From a virus, in the IMG/VR virus record IMGVR_UViG_3300008117_000018, positions 1-64,000 of that record: DNA of 64,000 bases, one strand, 5' to 3'. Positions 9,712-42,609 of the stretch are shown here, one piece after another. The notes under the pieces are model-generated. The model saw nothing but the letters and a program-made list of their open reading frames with translations. It was not told where the DNA came from and did not search any database. The position numbers were made by a program, and so were the translations under genes. The number at the start of each line of letters is the position of its first letter. The first letter of the stretch is position 1.

Positions 9712-9798
9712 AAATTTAAATTTTTATTATATATAAAAACATTACTTATTTAAACATTAGGTAATTTACAATCTATAATAAAAAAATAAAACCTATTA

Positions 9799-10557
9799 AT
9801 GGAAAAATACGCTTTCACCTATATCATAGGATATAGACACAGAGTAGATAGATTTATGAATCTAAAAAGAGTGTTAGACTGGATTAATGCATTTTCATCT
9901 GTTCAAGTAATATTAGTAGAACAAGATAAGTATTCTAAAATTTCACACTTGAATCTCAAAGCACAACACATCTTTTTAAAAACAGACAAACCATATAATA
10001 AATCTTGGTCTTTCAACGTGGCTCTTAAATACGTAAAATCAGATATAGTTGCATTTGCAGACTCAGATCTTATCATGAACCCAGACGCTCTAATAGAATC
10101 ACTAAAATTAATTAGTCAATATGAAATGGTGAATCCCTATAATTCTGTAATAGACTTGGACCCTCAAGAGACAGGACTACCTATAGACCAAATTGTTTCA
10201 ATTAATAGACCTGGTAGAGGCGAGACGGATCATCAAAAAGTGCCTCTATGTGGGGGAATTTGCATCTTTAGAAAAGATGCAATAAACAAGATAGGCGGTT
10301 GGAATGAAAACTTCATAGGCTGGGGAGCAGAAGACGATTTTCAATCAATTAAAGTTACTAATTTTTTATCGTGGACTGAACTACCACATAAATGTTATCA
10401 TCTTTATCATGTAAGAGAAGCACCTAACATGCCGCTTTATCAAAGAAATATTCAACTATTGAATCAATTAGCTACTCTCTCTAAAGAAGACTTAGTCAAA
10501 ACCATAAATAAAGACATTCCAAAAAATGGCATGAAAAATAAATATGACAATTTTTAA
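9799..10557 (+). CDS. GT2-family glycosyltransferase (galactosyl/GalNAc-transferase-like)
   Basis: A 252-residue single-domain GT-A enzyme. Residues 1-90 carry the nucleotide-binding strand pattern and the metal site FADSDLIM; residues about 150-190 carry GGICIFRKDAI and the acceptor-loop signature GGWNENFIGWGAEDDF typical of polypeptide GalNAc-transferases and chondroitin polymerases. Likely adds a hexose or N-acetylhexosamine to a phage-directed glycan. It overlaps the following capsid-like gene by 14 bases, which may hint that the target is a virion protein; that link is inference. Confidence 0.8.
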   Translation: MEKYAFTYIIGYRHRVDRFMNLKRVLDWINAFSSVQVILVEQDKYSKISHLNLKAQHIFLKTDKPYNKSWSFNVALKYVKSDIVAFADSDLIMNPDALIESLKLISQYEMVNPYNSVIDLDPQETGLPIDQIVSINRPGRGETDHQKVPLCGGICIFRKDAINKIGGWNENFIGWGAEDDFQSIKVTNFLSWTELPHKCYHLYHVREAPNMPLYQRNIQLLNQLATLSKEDLVKTINKDIPKNGMKNKYDNF

Positions 10558-11320
10558 AGACCAATTAAAATCTATCTGCAACTATTCAGATAAGCAGATG
10601 ACTACACCAAAAGCTCAATTGATGTATGTTGATATGATATCATCAGATGATGAAGAATATAAAAGACAGATCAAACAAAAAAATAGAGAATTAGTAGTTG
10701 ATGCTATTTTAGATGATAAGATTGAAGAATTAAATACATTCAGAGAAAATAACATTGCATCACAAGTAGTTGATTTAAGCTCTCAATATAATCCGGCAGT
10801 TAGTAGTGCTGGACAACAAGTAATAAGTCCAAAAATTATGCAAATAAACTTAACTGCTAAAAAATTTGAGACTTATGAAAAATTATGGAATGAAGTAGTT
10901 GATTTTTTAAATCAAAATACACAAAATCCTAAATCTAAAGCAAATGGCCCATACACATCGTTAGATGTTACTCTAAATGGTGACTTTGAACAAGATTATA
11001 GAAGAGTAATTGCAAAATTGATGATGTCATCAAATATAATTGCAATGGATGGAAGAATTGGACCAGCAACATCACTAATTTATGGTAAAAAATCATTTCC
11101 TTATATAAATTATGCTAGAAATCAATTTGAATCAAATAATATAAATGGAATACAAACCTATTTCAGTGACTTAATTGATGATGATAAAATCATCGTATGT
11201 AGAGGAAGTAATATAGACCAACCAGGATTATTACTTATTGATAACTCTACAACAGGAAATTACTTTTTTGACAAAACACCAAACTGGCATAAACAATTTT
11301 GTTGGTTTAAAATTATTTAA
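10544..11320 (+). CDS. Small protein with a C-terminal piece of the major-capsid-protein fold
   Basis: A 258-residue protein. Its C-terminal ~110 residues align by eye with the last quarter of this phage's capsid protein (40885-42609): AMDGRIGPATSLI against ATEGRVGPAQYLI, and DDKIIVCRGSNIDQPGLLLI against DNRIVLGRKNNPDQPGIIFV, in the same order and similar spacing. The N-terminal half is helical, polar and unassigned. It is far shorter than gp23 or gp24 of T4 (over 400 residues), so it is not a full vertex protein. It may be a capsid accessory or a decoy of the fold. It sits between glycosyltransferase and methyltransferase genes. Confidence 0.6.
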   Translation: MTIFKDQLKSICNYSDKQMTTPKAQLMYVDMISSDDEEYKRQIKQKNRELVVDAILDDKIEELNTFRENNIASQVVDLSSQYNPAVSSAGQQVISPKIMQINLTAKKFETYEKLWNEVVDFLNQNTQNPKSKANGPYTSLDVTLNGDFEQDYRRVIAKLMMSSNIIAMDGRIGPATSLIYGKKSFPYINYARNQFESNNINGIQTYFSDLIDDDKIIVCRGSNIDQPGLLLIDNSTTGNYFFDKTPNWHKQFCWFKII

Positions 11321-11323
11321 TAT

Positions 11324-11932
11324 ATGGAAATAATTGAACCAAATCCATTACTGATAAAATATGTCCAAAGATGTAATTCACTATTTACAGAATTTGATTC
11401 TTTAAAAAAAGATTTTGTTGATTCAAACGAGTGGCATTATATAATGTCTAATTTAGAACAAAATATTTTTCTTTTACAAAGATTAAAAGAAAAGAATCTT
11501 CTAAATAAGAATACAATTAACATATGTGATGCCGGTATAGGCTTAGGCGCTGCATTATTTGATATCTATTTACAATCACAAGAAATTACTGATAAAAAAT
11601 TTTATTTTACAGGTATAGAAAAATATGATTCGTATCTGAATTATCTAAATGAATACTTGATAGAAAATTGGAAAAACAAACTTACAATTATAAAAGGTGA
11701 CATAATGCAACAGGATTATTCAAAATATGATATAGTTTATTCATACTCACCTTTTAGAAGTCCAAGATTACTTGTAGACTTCTACACAAAAGTTAAAAAT
11801 GAGATATCCCCTGGTTCATTGATTATTGAAAATAGAAATAAAGGATATGGAATTGAATCAACTATGACTATGGTCGATGGATTAGAATGTATAGTATTGG
11901 ATGATATAGTTGTTTTTAAAAAAACTATTTAG
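11324..11932 (+). CDS. SAM-dependent methyltransferase-like protein
   Basis: A 202-residue protein with a Rossmann-type class I methyltransferase pattern: motif I as ICDAGIGLGAAL (about residues 66-77), an acidic strand end at FTGIEKYD, then GDIMQQDYSKYDIVYSYSPF in the place of motif IV. Glycine-rich loop spacing is canonical. The substrate is unknown; its position directly after the capsid-like protein and within the sugar cluster suggests modification of a glycan or protein. A partial promoter-like TTTAATATATG overlaps its ATG. Confidence 0.6.
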   Translation: MEIIEPNPLLIKYVQRCNSLFTEFDSLKKDFVDSNEWHYIMSNLEQNIFLLQRLKEKNLLNKNTINICDAGIGLGAALFDIYLQSQEITDKKFYFTGIEKYDSYLNYLNEYLIENWKNKLTIIKGDIMQQDYSKYDIVYSYSPFRSPRLLVDFYTKVKNEISPGSLIIENRNKGYGIESTMTMVDGLECIVLDDIVVFKKTI

Positions 11933-12509
11933 CAGCTACTCTAATTTTATCGTACTTAATTAATAATTTATAAATATTTTCATATTCGTTTATTGGATCA
12001 GAAACTATTTGTTGATACCATTTGTTATTGTTAAGATACTCTACTAACATTCCTTTTTTGAAATCACCAATTTTAGTTGGTTTCCAATATCTTACTTGCT
12101 CTAAAAATGAAAAAGATAAACCATTGTATAAATAAGAAGTGTTATCTGAGTCAGTATTATATAAAACTATACTAAGTGGTTTTTCTTGACCATCTCTAAA
12201 TACTTTTTTAGCAATTGACTCATCTCTATATTTTATTATACCACACTCTTGATGAAAATGATTCAATAAAAATATTAAATCTTTTCTTAGTTCATCATTA
12301 TCTACACCAGAAAAAGCCAAAATAGAATTTTCATACTGACCTTTATAAAAACTCTGAATAGGAATTATTGTATAGTCTTTAGCATATAATATAGATGTCA
12401 TATCATCGAGCCTATCTGATGATAGCAATATAAATGATATTTTAGGGTTTTGTAAATCTAACACAAACTTATATATTAAATTAGAAGTCTTAGAAATTGA
12501 ATTGATCAA
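11925..12509 (-). CDS. Hypothetical protein
   Basis: Encodes 194 residues of mixed alpha/beta composition. The N-terminus (MINSISKTSNLIYKF) is followed by a strand (ISFILLSSDR); the C-terminus ends KLLIKYDKIRVAAK. There is no signal peptide or membrane helix. Its start lies 20 bases inside the polymerase-like gene upstream, so it is the last gene of a minus-strand unit running from 16045. No family is recognised. Confidence 0.45.
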   Translation of the reverse strand: MINSISKTSNLIYKFVLDLQNPKISFILLSSDRLDDMTSILYAKDYTIIPIQSFYKGQYENSILAFSGVDNDELRKDLIFLLNHFHQECGIIKYRDESIAKKVFRDGQEKPLSIVLYNTDSDNTSYLYNGLSFSFLEQVRYWKPTKIGDFKKGMLVEYLNNNKWYQQIVSDPINEYENIYKLLIKYDKIRVAAK

Positions 12510-13749
12510 ATAACTCTGTTTTAAATATAGCCTCTACTAAATTTTTATTCTTTTTTGCCATAATCAAACTGTCGTGTACGGTTATCAATTTTACCGAAGA
12601 ATCCTCTATCATTATTTTTTTTACAATTTTATTAAAGATTAAATTAGATTCCATTTTTTGCAAATCATAAGCTAAAATTTTATAATCACCCTTTTCCTTT
12701 TTATATAGAGTTATAAAATTGTGAATTGTCGGAAATACTGATTTAAATAACTTATCAGCTCTACTATTTGCTGCATTCCTACCGAATAAAACCTTATAAG
12801 TTAGTTCTTTTACTTCTTTTTTATCTTTTATATTTAGTTTCTGCATTAAAAATTGATAATAATTACCAGAGATAGTCAATTCTTTAAAAATTTCAAACTC
12901 TTCAGATTTAACCCAATTTGTTTTAGAATCTCTAATTAATTTTGTTAGAAAAAGTGGTTGTGAATTTGAAATATCTATTTCACAAGTTTCCTCACCATCT
13001 ATAAGAAGACAATTTTTTCTAATGAAACTTCTCAGGATAGTAAAATTAGTATGCATTCTACCATAAGAATCAAAATGAAAAAATATATGTTTTTCATTTA
13101 TTGAATCACAAGCATAAACATTTCTATTATAGATATCAAAGTCTTTTTCTTTTAATGAATCTAAAAAGAAAATCGATCTTGGTAAGTCGATCTGAACAGA
13201 AAATAAATCAGACACTAACTTCTCACGAACCGTATCTTCAATAAGTGTATAATTTGTTTTAGAATTATTAATTAATTCTAAAACCTTTTTTTTATATTTT
13301 TTTAATAAAACTTTATCGTAGTTTTTTATTCTTTTTTTCTTAGATTTTATGACTTTTGGATTTAGTGAGTAAATTCTAGACGTCACGCCCTTTTTATAAT
13401 TAGTAATTAGTTGAAGTATGTTTCTCTCTATCAGATAATCCATATAACTTTTATACAAATAGCCATATTTATCTTTTAAAACTTCAGCATTTATGACAAA
13501 TTTGTTTTCTTTTTTGAAATAGTATTTTAATAGTAAGTTATTGACTATATCAATAAGATAAGCTGGTTTAATTTTTTGATTTTTATATTCTATAGTTTTT
13601 AATTTAGAAATAGAATCCAGACACTCTGGAAGATAATGTAGGCAGTAATTTTTTTCTCTTAATCTTTTTAAAATATTATTTGAAATTTTTAAGTTACTTA
13701 CTTTGACTATATTCATATCAATCTTATTAAGATTTTCTAATAGATTCAT
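12490..13749 (-). CDS. Compact polymerase-like protein (family A DNA polymerase / T7-type RNA polymerase palm)
   Basis: A 419-residue protein with the palm and fingers signatures of the family A/T7 superfamily in the right order: HFDSYGRMHTNFTIL (about 225-239, like the template-contacting GR motif), motif A EIDISNSQP with Asp259, fingers helix KELTYKVLFGRN (about 314-325), DLQKMESNLIF (362-372) in place of the MQGTAAD helix, and motif C LITVHDSLI with His392-Asp393. Exonuclease and normal thumb domains are absent; residues 1-200 are Lys-rich and unassigned. Both catalytic Asp residues are present, so activity is plausible. Whether it makes DNA, RNA or primers is unknown. Overlaps neighbours on both sides by a few bases. 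Confidence 0.6.
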   Translation of the reverse strand: MNLLENLNKIDMNIVKVSNLKISNNILKRLREKNYCLHYLPECLDSISKLKTIEYKNQKIKPAYLIDIVNNLLLKYYFKKENKFVINAEVLKDKYGYLYKSYMDYLIERNILQLITNYKKGVTSRIYSLNPKVIKSKKKRIKNYDKVLLKKYKKKVLELINNSKTNYTLIEDTVREKLVSDLFSVQIDLPRSIFFLDSLKEKDFDIYNRNVYACDSINEKHIFFHFDSYGRMHTNFTILRSFIRKNCLLIDGEETCEIDISNSQPLFLTKLIRDSKTNWVKSEEFEIFKELTISGNYYQFLMQKLNIKDKKEVKELTYKVLFGRNAANSRADKLFKSVFPTIHNFITLYKKEKGDYKILAYDLQKMESNLIFNKIVKKIMIEDSSVKLITVHDSLIMAKKNKNLVEAIFKTELFDQFNF

Positions 13750-13946
13750 TGTTTGAAAATTTTATTAATTTTTTGTTTTCTTTTACTCTTAATCATCTCA
13801 CTCATTAATTGACTGGCTAAATCGTCTATATTGATACCATGATAAGATTTTAAATCATGTGATAAATCTCGTGACCAAGTCGCTCTTAGAACTCTTGTAT
13901 CAGCTTTAACTTCAACAGAAGTCATACTAAGACCAATAGATTTCAT
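13746..13946 (-). CDS. 66-residue fragment resembling the gp23 capsid spine region
   Basis: The short product (SVEVKADTRVLRATWSRDL...) resembles the T4 gp23 segment with SVEAKSRQLKAAYSIELAQDL followed by an HG-x-D-A-E-like helix; here SYHGINIDDL takes that place. The same region of this phage's own capsid protein (near ISSKTIAVGTIEVSS) is more distant. It overlaps the genes on both sides by four bases or one base (ATG/stop), so it is translated as part of the cluster and is not a random remnant. Role unknown; a capsid-assembly helper is possible. Confidence 0.5.
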   Translation of the reverse strand: MKSIGLSMTSVEVKADTRVLRATWSRDLSHDLKSYHGINIDDLASQLMSEMIKSKRKQKINKIFKQ

Positions 13947-15286
13947 TATTTTGTTGGTGTTTGTTCTTTACCAACTTCAGGAACTATAGGCATTTTACCA
14001 CCTTTACCCTTTTTCTTCTTTTGCTCACCAGATTCTTTATCAAATTCATCATATACATCTGGATAAACTTGACCCTCAGCATCAGTGTCATATTGTATAT
14101 CGAAGAAGTCTCCAAAGTCAAGAAGACCAGCTCTACCTAGCTCTATTTCTTGCATTTTATTTAAATATTTAGATATATAATCGTCAATATCTTGAACAAA
14201 ACCATTAAAAAGTTTCACGGTATTATCAGTAAATATACCAATTGCTTTTTTCTTTTTCTTATTAAGAGAACCCAATAAAACTTTGAAAATATATTCAAGT
14301 TTTGGACTTTCTTCAATATACTCTTTAGTCAATTTATTATTTATCAACTCAACATTAATTTTAAACTTTTGTTTATCAAAAAATTCAGGAACAATGAAGT
14401 CAAAGTTTAGTAAATCTTCTTTTACCTCAGAAACATAGAGGTTAAATAATTTGCTTACTAAATAAAGGTAACACTCATCTTTCTTTTCGCCTTTTAATTT
14501 TATATCTTCTATATTTAGAGATTGACAAAAATTTAAGAAATTTACAAGTATAAGTGTATAAATCTCAACAAAATCAGTATCATTTGTTTCACTTATTCGA
14601 GTATAAAGTGGATTCAATAATTCAAAAGAAAGGTCATCTTTTAAAGTTCTTATAATCAGCTTTTCTATGTTATTCTGAAAGTCTTCACTATTCATTAAGA
14701 AAGAGTTTTCAATGTTAGGATTTAAAATCTTATAAAAGAAATAAGAAAATGATTTTTCACCAAAAATATAATCTAAATCTTCTTCAGACGTATTTAGAAA
14801 ATATTTTATAGCTTCTTTCATTGTTTCAGTAAGTTTACCTTGAAAAACAATTGGAACCATATCAACATTTATTAATCTAGCATATTCGTCTAGTTCATCA
14901 ATATTAAAGCCATACTTTCCTGATTTATTTATAGCAGATAACACTAAATTATTTTTAGGAATTCTATCATATTGTATATTGGCGGGTTGATTATCTGGAA
15001 AATATTCAAAACAAAACCACCATTTCTTATTAAGAAGTGATTTTACACGATTATCTAATTGATTAAAGTAATTTATTGCAGGATTATAATAATTCTGCAT
15101 CGCTAAGTCAATTAAGTTTATTGGTTCGTTTGATATAGACTTAGGCTTTAGAATAAATTCAGTTCCATTCCAATTTACCCATATTTTACTACCTTGTATA
15201 TCTTCTATTACAATAATTTCATCACTTAATATACCATCAAGTAATTCTTTTTCATTTAAGCCGTTAAGCGTAACTAATTTTGCCAT
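13946..15286 (-). CDS. RNA-ligase-like nucleotidyltransferase, apparently without catalytic lysines
   Basis: A 446-residue protein with the layout of phage ATP-dependent RNA/DNA ligases: motif I region at VIEDIQGSKIWV (about 26-37), motif III at WWFCFEYFPDNQP followed by IQYDRIPKNNLVL (conserved in T4-type phage ligase homologues), and a motif IV/V-like IEKLIIR...FELLNPLY. In active members motif I reads EKxxG with Lys as the AMP acceptor; here it reads EDIQG, and the motif IV Gly and motif V Lys also appear replaced. It may be a pseudoenzyme with a structural or RNA-binding role. The C-terminus is a charged, Lys-rich disordered tail. Confidence 0.6.
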   Translation of the reverse strand: MAKLVTLNGLNEKELLDGILSDEIIVIEDIQGSKIWVNWNGTEFILKPKSISNEPINLIDLAMQNYYNPAINYFNQLDNRVKSLLNKKWWFCFEYFPDNQPANIQYDRIPKNNLVLSAINKSGKYGFNIDELDEYARLINVDMVPIVFQGKLTETMKEAIKYFLNTSEEDLDYIFGEKSFSYFFYKILNPNIENSFLMNSEDFQNNIEKLIIRTLKDDLSFELLNPLYTRISETNDTDFVEIYTLILVNFLNFCQSLNIEDIKLKGEKKDECYLYLVSKLFNLYVSEVKEDLLNFDFIVPEFFDKQKFKINVELINNKLTKEYIEESPKLEYIFKVLLGSLNKKKKKAIGIFTDNTVKLFNGFVQDIDDYISKYLNKMQEIELGRAGLLDFGDFFDIQYDTDAEGQVYPDVYDEFDKESGEQKKKKGKGGKMPIVPEVGKEQTPTK

Positions 15287-40884: not shown

Positions 40885-42609
40885 TTAGTTTAATAATCCA
40901 TAAGAATCAGAAACTTTAATAGTCATAAACTGTTTTTGTGGGAACCAACCAACTTCAGCAACAGCATATCTAGATCTCAACAACATTCTTGGAGCAAAAG
41001 TAGCCTCAGAAATCAAAGAGATTGATTGTGCCATTAAATAAGGTACGAAAATGATACCTGGTTGATCAGGATTGTTCTTTCTACCAAGAACGATTCTGTT
41101 ATCATTATATCTCATATATGGATCAACGTAGATAGAAATATCACCGATTGAACCAACAGGATATAATTGACCTTGTCCGTTTAACTTAGACTTAACTGGG
41201 TTAATAGTGTAACCAGAAATATCAGCTAAAGCAGCAGCAAGACCCCCGTTTGTGATAAGGTATTGAGCTGGACCTACACGACCTTCAGTTGCAATGTAGT
41301 TAGAAGCGTGAGCAATTTTAGTGATAAGTTTTCTTTGTACGGCGTGAGTAGTTTCACCACCAACTGTACTAGTTACATAAGTAGTATCTAAGTCAAAGAT
41401 TGTTTGGCTAGCAATATTAGTTGAGAAAGTTAATCCAGCTAAAGGCGCGCTAGTTCTGTTAAGATCACCCATTTCAAAAATCTTAGCAACGATTTGCTTA
41501 GAAATTGTTTGAGATAATTCATTAACAAGAATAGATTCCATTTTTTGAACGATATCCATACCTGTGTTAGCTTTGATATCTTCAATTTCAGTTCTTCTAA
41601 GAGCTGAAGATACTTCAATAGTACCAACTGCGATAGTTTTAGAAGAGATTTTTGGTCCGATAACTCCAGAATATCTTGAGTCATCTTGATCTCTATCCAT
41701 TGGATATTGTCCAGAGAATTGAGAAGTTGAACCAGAGTTCCAGTTTGCAGAAAAACCAGGGATATGATCTTCTAACGCAGAAACCAATTCGATTGCAGGC
41801 TCACCACCTAAAGCAGTACCACCTAAAGCAATGATTTGAGAAGCCATAGACGTTGTAGAATCAAATGTATTTCTTGTTGTATCAAAAGCCCAAGTTGTAG
41901 CTGCAGAACCAACCGCTGTATGAGACGTGTTGAATTGTCTGTAAGCTCTGAACATTGGATAACCATCAATTCTTGAGAATCCTAAAAATTCAACTTTATT
42001 TTCTTTATCAGATGGCTCTGAAGTAATTGCAGCACCTGTATCGATGTTATTCCAAATTCTACCATTTAAACCACCTGTAGTTTCGCTAATAACTGGAGAA
42101 GAAGCTGCTAACTGAGCTCTAAGACCAGCGATAACTGCTGTTAATTTAGTAGAAGTCAATCCTGCTGTTTTAGGAGCAATTTTGAAAACTTGTGGTCTTT
42201 CATCTTCATTTCCTAAACGAGTATCATCGTATTGGAAGTCGATGTAAAGAAGGTCGATTTTCGGACCTGGAGATGGTTTAACAGCAACAAGGTCAAGACC
42301 GATTGTTTGAGCAGCAATTTTCATAGCTACAGGAAGTAAGTTTTGACCTACATCTCCTGAACCATTTGAACCACCAAAACCAGCCCAATTGTTACCAATT
42401 GTTGAACCAGCTAAAGTTGAAGGTTGTGGAGCAACAACACCACCCATACCAGCAACGTTAGAAGCATTCACATAAGCGTTCTCGTTGATTGAGTGGAACT
42501 CAGCATATTCTGACATCCAATCAATTCTCTCACCAGTAACACCCATGTTCTCAAGAACTGGAGACCATTTCTTGATAGCTTTAGATTTGTCTATTCTAAT
42601 GTGTGACAT
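40885..42609 (-). CDS. Major capsid protein (T4 gp23-like)
   Basis: A 574-residue HK97-fold capsid protein. The N-terminus (MSHIRIDKSKAIKKWSPVLE) matches the gp23 propeptide, and SINE|N at residues 40-44 is a plausible maturation cut of the same kind as on the packaged proteins. The spine-region segment KTIAVGTIEVSSALRRTEIE and the C-terminal DNRIVLGRKNNPDQPGIIFV with ALMAQ-like and RYAVAEVGW segments fit gp23. The gene is followed by a strong terminator and preceded by the protease-scaffold gene, which is the normal order of head genes read on the minus strand. Confidence 0.88.
   Translation of the reverse strand: MSHIRIDKSKAIKKWSPVLENMGVTGERIDWMSEYAEFHSINENAYVNASNVAGMGGVVAPQPSTLAGSTIGNNWAGFGGSNGSGDVGQNLLPVAMKIAAQTIGLDLVAVKPSPGPKIDLLYIDFQYDDTRLGNEDERPQVFKIAPKTAGLTSTKLTAVIAGLRAQLAASSPVISETTGGLNGRIWNNIDTGAAITSEPSDKENKVEFLGFSRIDGYPMFRAYRQFNTSHTAVGSAATTWAFDTTRNTFDSTTSMASQIIALGGTALGGEPAIELVSALEDHIPGFSANWNSGSTSQFSGQYPMDRDQDDSRYSGVIGPKISSKTIAVGTIEVSSALRRTEIEDIKANTGMDIVQKMESILVNELSQTISKQIVAKIFEMGDLNRTSAPLAGLTFSTNIASQTIFDLDTTYVTSTVGGETTHAVQRKLITKIAHASNYIATEGRVGPAQYLITNGGLAAALADISGYTINPVKSKLNGQGQLYPVGSIGDISIYVDPYMRYNDNRIVLGRKNNPDQPGIIFVPYLMAQSISLISEATFAPRMLLRSRYAVAEVGWFPQKQFMTIKVSDSYGLLN

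Follow-up and report, generated by a model that had tools for sequence, protein, structure and literature searches.

Paralogues of phage capsid proteins are known as parts of the shell, as with T4 gp24. The same phage also encodes Srd and Srh, which are annotated in the record as postulated sigma-factor decoys. One report describes how CapRel-SJ46 is triggered by the capsid protein of SECphi27, so that an HK97-fold major capsid protein (MCP) is sensed by bacterial immunity (PMC9712102). Here we describe mini-MCP, a phage capsid paralogue so reduced that it probably builds no shells, whose missing helix sits on a separate conserved gene, while related huge phages hold further single-segment MCP pieces. 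This suggests that these phages imitate their own capsid for a purpose beyond building it, and as capsid proteins are known to be sensed by bacterial immunity, the collection provides a concrete test set for structural-protein decoys or weapons. In some of these phages about 10% of the small proteins carry common C-terminal peptides, and these offer a handle on hundreds of uncharacterised genes.

The window, meaning the whole 64-kb stretch of DNA analysed here, is a portion of a 111-kb virus record. Its MCP is of the T4 gp23 type (PHROG 138 match, E=6e-26), and when this protein is used as a BLASTP query against the ORFs of the window at E<=1, mini-MCP is the only match besides the query itself. 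Residues 153-232 of mini-MCP align with MCP 426-522 (40 bits, E=4e-8), which bears out the sequence-only reading that two blocks, GRxGPAxxLI and DxxIVxxRxxNxDQPG, run in the same order in both proteins (here GRIGPATSLI and DDKIIVCRGSNIDQPG). Chance similarity was rejected: none of 1000 shuffled sequences scored as well (38.5 bits for the real sequence, at most 25.0 bits for the shuffles), and the pairwise HMM check proposed by that reading, run as a profile-profile comparison of a 20-sequence mini-MCP family profile with a 13-sequence MCP profile, aligned residues 82-233 with MCP 308-523 (probability 97.4%, E=1.5e-11). The same reading had seen the C-terminal part of the capsid fold behind an unrelated helical N-terminus. 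The shared capsid domain is supported and a helical hairpin is predicted, but the homology is not confined to the C-terminal part and the N-terminus is not wholly unrelated, since residues 82-107 (including VISPKIMQINLTAKKF) align with the return strand of the MCP E-loop. Homology of residues 20-33 is suggestive only. The hairpin contains the motif KNRELVVDAILD at residues 46-57, and its Arg48 is invariant across the mini-MCP family. No similarity was found to MCP 1-110, the N-terminal delta domain that is removed by the prohead protease, and the profile alignment has large gaps over the spine-helix segment. As a single sequence, mini-MCP matches no Pfam or PHROG family at E<=0.1, and phmmer and profile searches of PDB sequences gave chance matches only.

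We are nearly certain that the phage's own gp23-type MCP has in mini-MCP a shortened and diverged paralogue. Retained are the return strand of the E-loop, the A-domain and, judging by the model described below, the closing P-domain strands; the delta domain, a large middle region and nearly the whole spine helix have been lost, and the E-loop has acquired the helical hairpin.

The AlphaFold model (20 sequences, pLDDT 80, pTM 0.73) places this hairpin between strands 23-33 and 94-107. Where the spine helix would be expected there is a short helix of 14 residues (111-124), with the A-domain and closing strands after it. The spine-helix segment of the MCP is one long helix, at about 330-378. In a Foldseek search of the PDB the first match is T4 gp23 (7vrt; E=3.6e-7, probability 1.00, TM 0.52 on the query), and below it stand other HK97-fold capsids, including HK97 gp5, and an encapsulin. 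Among viral models the matches are MCPs and, from Vibrio phage nt-1, one "head vertex protein" of 297 aa. The predicted fold is thus of the HK97 type, as the sequence-only reading had anticipated; since the rmsd values are large and the domain arrangement differs, we claim the type of fold and not its details.

Table 1. Features of the mini-MCP locus and MCP-derived ORFs of the 635-kb phage.
Feature	Position	Strand	MCP segment	Remarks
Promoter-like element 5' of glycosyltransferase	9774..9791	+		TATAATAAAAAAATAAAA in window; TATAAATAAAAAATAAT in relatives
Glycosyltransferase (GT2 / GT7C-like)	9799..10557	+		14-nt overlap with mini-MCP start
mini-MCP	10544..11320	+		258 aa, ATG start; short paralogue of gp23-type MCP
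Predicted helical hairpin between two E-loop-like strands	10643..10750	+		residues 34-69
Strand aligned with MCP E-loop return strand	10823..10864	+	about 317-330	residues 94-107
First block, A-domain	11051..11080	+		GRIGPATSLI; residues 170-179
Second block, A-domain	11180..11227	+		DDKIIVCRGSNIDQPG; residues 213-228
Spine-helix ORF	13746..13946	-		66 aa; gp23-type E-loop return strand and spine-helix segment only; ends in SKRKQKINKIFK
MCP (parent fold)	40885..42609	-		574 aa; PHROG 138 (gp23 type)
635-kb phage, 157-aa ORF			8-47 and 90-120	
635-kb phage, 166-aa ORF			40-94	
635-kb phage, 84-aa ORF			39-89	
635-kb phage, 67-aa ORF			343-374	weak
635-kb phage, mini-MCP			393-454	
635-kb phage, 243-aa ORF			448-544	
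635-kb phage, 75-aa ORF			506-552	

What might such a protein do? We tentatively favour a capsid mimic working off the shell, a reading that we hold to be somewhat short of probable, and the weights given here to all roles rest on inference. Made together with the glycosyltransferase, mini-MCP would display the A-domain surfaces of the MCP and would presumably engage the usual binding partners of the capsid protein. The partner could be a host sensor that recognises capsid protein, with mini-MCP acting as a decoy, or alternatively the capsid subunits of a competing phage, with whose assembly it would interfere; the 66-aa spine-helix protein, a member of the same set, may complete the fold in trans. 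Several facts speak against this off-shell mimic. The promoter-like element in front of the glycosyltransferase resembles one of the T4 late type, and a role in the virion would explain the association with a sugar gene equally well. The mini-MCP family exceeds the other MCP pieces in age and completeness, and the tag-like motif in the window copy is internal and degenerate (28/200 shuffles reach its held-out score). A scan of mini-MCP against the PADLOC defence models gave no match, and no sensor is known in the host.

The main rival, which we consider rather unlikely, places mini-MCP in the virion as a minor capsid subunit: a gp24-type vertex-like or decoration protein that is perhaps glycosylated by the neighbouring enzyme. 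The compact HK97-type model with T4 gp23 as its best PDB match would suit such a subunit, as would the vertex protein of phage nt-1 among the structural matches. So would the late-type element, and so would three relatives (L065, L069, L073) in which the MCP gene itself, with a 64-aa ORF behind it, stands immediately in front of the same glycosyltransferase. Against a subunit of the shell stand a spine helix reduced to residues 111-124, the loss of the delta domain, a gene outside the head operon and, in the 436-kb phage, apart from the glycosyltransferase, and the failure to detect mini-MCP in four large MCP-bearing records (227.6, 464.6, 117.9 and 636.4 kb). We know of no decoration protein with the fold predicted here. 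The promoter-like element occurs in the exact form TATAAATA in 10/18 distinct relatives, and TATAAATAAAAAATAAT upstream of the glycosyltransferase recalls the late promoters of T4. This likeness implies that mini-MCP may be made alongside the capsid protein, a late timing that suits a capsid-sensing decoy and a virion role alike. A second element, ATATATA, lies within 80 nt upstream of 22/45 window genes (1.6 expected), including those for MCP, portal and protease, and is probably a phage promoter class.

The helix that mini-MCP lacks is found a short way along the window in the 66-aa ORF. Several hundred T4-like phages have capsid proteins that this protein matches (best E=3e-6), its family profile finds residues 251-304 of T4 gp23 in the PDB (E=3.7e-7) and, weakly, gp24, and by local alignment it covers MCP 312-371 without a gap; the hhalign comparison of the family with the MCP profile is weaker (37%, E=3.5e-4). 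It also bears a C-terminal peptide of the xxRDxKIDxIL type (0/200 shuffles as good). The ORF clearly belongs to the set of MCP-derived mini-proteins, and single-segment members such as this one cannot be shell subunits. Two proteins of 419 aa (window 12490-13749, minus strand) and 446 aa (13946-15286, minus strand) flank it in almost all relatives; neither has a match in Pfam, PHROG or the PDB.

Could the two genes encode one capsid-like unit in two pieces, with the helix supplied in trans? Such a unit would be compatible with either the mimic or the subunit role, and what mini-MCP lacks is exactly the segment to which the 66-aa family aligns. The ORF is present in 27/29 loci with mini-MCP and in 5/32 without it (p=4e-10), or in 14/15 and 4/22 (p=6e-6) when glycosyltransferases are collapsed at 85% identity, but these loci are related by descent and the p values, which overstate independence, are indicative. 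The five loci have the 66-aa ORF with no adjoining mini-MCP, some family members lack the middle of the helix, and genome-wide the ORF is again found without mini-MCP, while the 436-kb phage has both, far apart. We think a two-piece unit improbable.

Upstream of mini-MCP is the glycosyltransferase and then, as the sequence-only reading had it in placing the gene inside a sugar cluster, come genes for a UDP-GlcNAc 2-epimerase and LicD/methyltransferase proteins. The enzyme and mini-MCP stay paired in nearly all relatives. A still less probable reading takes mini-MCP for a docking or substrate partner that brings the glycosyltransferase to capsid proteins. The genes overlap, their adjacency has been kept over wide divergence (the enzyme is about 60% identical), and two other kinds of MCP-derived gene adjoin the enzyme: the full MCP gene in the three relatives named above, and pieces of the MCP N-terminus in the slot behind it in L022, L030 and L031, where one piece continues into an apparent tail-sheath N-terminus. 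However, the two genes lie apart in the 436-kb phage, many copies of the enzyme have no mini-MCP beside them, and the adjacency to other MCP genes may represent two single events. Chimeric ORFs that join an MCP segment to a tail-sheath-like N-terminus were seen at L030:5794-6060(+) and L113:698-1999(-), the latter also holding a segment that by eye resembles family B DNA polymerase. The 202-aa protein at 11324-11932 (plus strand) of the window is methyltransferase-like (Pfam PRMT5, E=5e-7; PADLOC mad2, weakly, E=2e-5), and in relatives it lies sometimes behind mini-MCP and sometimes in its place. In the 436-kb phage, an 816-aa protein (L002:2551-5001(+)) has, judged by eye, an apparent signal peptide and a C-terminus resembling the gliding-motility/T9SS type of Bacteroidetes. 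The host of mini-MCP phages is probably a member of the Bacteroidetes, which are reported as hosts of the largest Mahaphages (PMC7162821).

When mini-MCP itself was the query, IMG/VR yielded six relatives, and two more came from the complete genomes of the huge phages LR756502 (642 kb) and LR745206 (635 kb); genome contigs gave none, and the megaphage copies used as lone queries matched no viral contigs. With the neighbouring glycosyltransferase as bait, 59 loci were collected, and at most of those more closely related the family profile recognised mini-MCP directly behind the enzyme. In one 154-kb relative (L085), a single TGA interrupts the MCP frame and splits it into two ORFs. Diverged lineages that keep the gene number about 15 and include the 635- and 642-kb phages; mini-MCP identity between lineages is about 30-35%, compared with about 60% for the glycosyltransferase. 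That mini-MCP is a partial copy might suggest a decaying, functionless relic of an MCP duplication, but it is intact in many diverged lineages and under purifying selection (dN/dS 0.17-0.37 in nine pairs, about 0.2), and we reject the pseudogene reading as barely credible. In the 735-kb phage, a 479-aa ORF fits the mini-MCP profile better than that phage's own MCP does, from which it follows that the mini-MCP family is older, and it is more complete, than the other pieces of MCP.

These other pieces emerged when the MCP was searched against whole records, which gave many partial matches in small ORFs (ORFs in the huge phages were called mechanically, longest first). Each of the related phages of 176-735 kb has 3-8 small proteins, every one with a different MCP segment, as tabulated for the 635-kb phage, where small partial paralogues number five for the MCP and at most two for any other gene. 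Comparable sets are present in a 642-kb phage, a 735-kb phage and a 176-kb contig; in one 642-kb phage, where the MCP ORF is cut by the boundary of the stretch, other genes exceed the MCP in partial paralogues. A general enrichment of gene fragments among tagged small ORFs was rejected (7/86 against 29/697, 2/83 against 36/751 and 11/75 against 77/728), and the link to fragments is therefore confined to the MCP and, in the 735-kb phage, to a few named structural genes, its tagged ORFs including pieces of prohead protease/scaffold, portal and tail sheath. The open-access literature yielded no report of capsid fragments or tags of this kind. Because mini-MCP lies within a wider MCP-derived set, some members of which are unable to be shell subunits, the decoy-like idea gains some weight.

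The tags came to light when the MCP pieces, aligned by eye, proved to have a 12-residue motif in common. A scan of the 994 ORFs of the 635-kb phage gave 94 matches where 5 were expected, mostly in small ORFs and within 10 residues of the C-terminus. In LR745206 (L128-L161) and LR756502 (L175-L208) an xxRDxKIDxIL-type peptide ends about 85 small ORFs each, or about 10% of the small proteins, at a rate per 1000 residues of 6-7 in tails against 0.1 in protein bodies. For the 635- and 642-kb phages, an unbiased search for enriched C-terminal residue triples arrived at this motif again. For the 735-kb phage, LR756501 (L209-L247), it gave DPYGEExW instead, of which there are 99 near-invariant copies at C-termini, at N-termini and in internal linkers of larger enzymes; in one such enzyme a deaminase is fused to a poly(A) polymerase/HD-like protein. 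The motif was absent from stretches of T4 and phage G (50 kb each). The codons of the RDxKIDxIL motif vary as in the genome at large, which rules against a DNA-level explanation and makes the peptide a protein-level signal; those of DPYGEExW vary too, with some bias to CCT and TAC.

With held-out motif models, trained on other genomes and with MCP-like proteins excluded, tags were found on 5/8 MCP-segment ORFs against 129/775 other small ORFs (p=0.005), and 5/8 against 145/826 (p=0.006); the corresponding figures for the 735-kb phage are 3/9 and 81/961 (p=0.04). Some pieces have no tag. Three relatives of the window's mini-MCP (L008, L037, L023) have a better tag-like motif (1/200 shuffles). 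The element AATATATA found 5' of many genes is rarer for tagged ones (1/86 against 124/717, p=4e-6; 5/83 against 141/764, p=0.002), and these therefore probably belong to a separate expression class.

Taken together, it is possible, though we consider it more doubtful than otherwise, that in huge gp23-type phages, including those of the Mahaphage size class, dispersed and tagged mimics of structural proteins and a common docking hub form one system, serving as immune decoys or in interference with competitors. In this equally doubtful picture the small genes would jointly carry most MCP segments, with segments of prohead protease/scaffold, portal and tail sheath added in one phage, and the lineage tags xxRDxKIDxIL or DPYGEExW would also mark dozens of unrelated small proteins. 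Mini-MCP would then be the most complete of the capsid mimics.

Among described systems, CapRel-SJ46 and SECphi27 illustrate the circumstances under which a phage would profit from a capsid decoy, although the accessible text of that report describes no decoy and no CapRel is known for the present host. HK97 gp5 and the encapsulins resemble the mini-MCP model in size and overall fold (with low TM values of 0.32-0.37), but they have retained a long spine helix and form shells by self-assembly, whereas the spine helix of mini-MCP is nearly absent. T4 Srd and Srh are, like mini-MCP, small phage proteins that resemble part of a larger protein and have been proposed as decoys; they imitate host sigma factors, while mini-MCP resembles a structural protein of the phage itself. 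The closest relatives are the T4 gp23/gp24 family (Pfam PF07068; PHROG 138), to which mini-MCP is homologous by profile comparison with its own gp23-type MCP, and T4 gp24 is likewise an MCP paralogue. Members of that family have 427-574 aa, however, and mini-MCP, at 258 aa, without the delta domain and with its spine helix nearly gone, differs from them further in the helical hairpin of its E-loop, its location away from the head operon, its patchy occurrence and its escape from detection by Pfam and PHROG.
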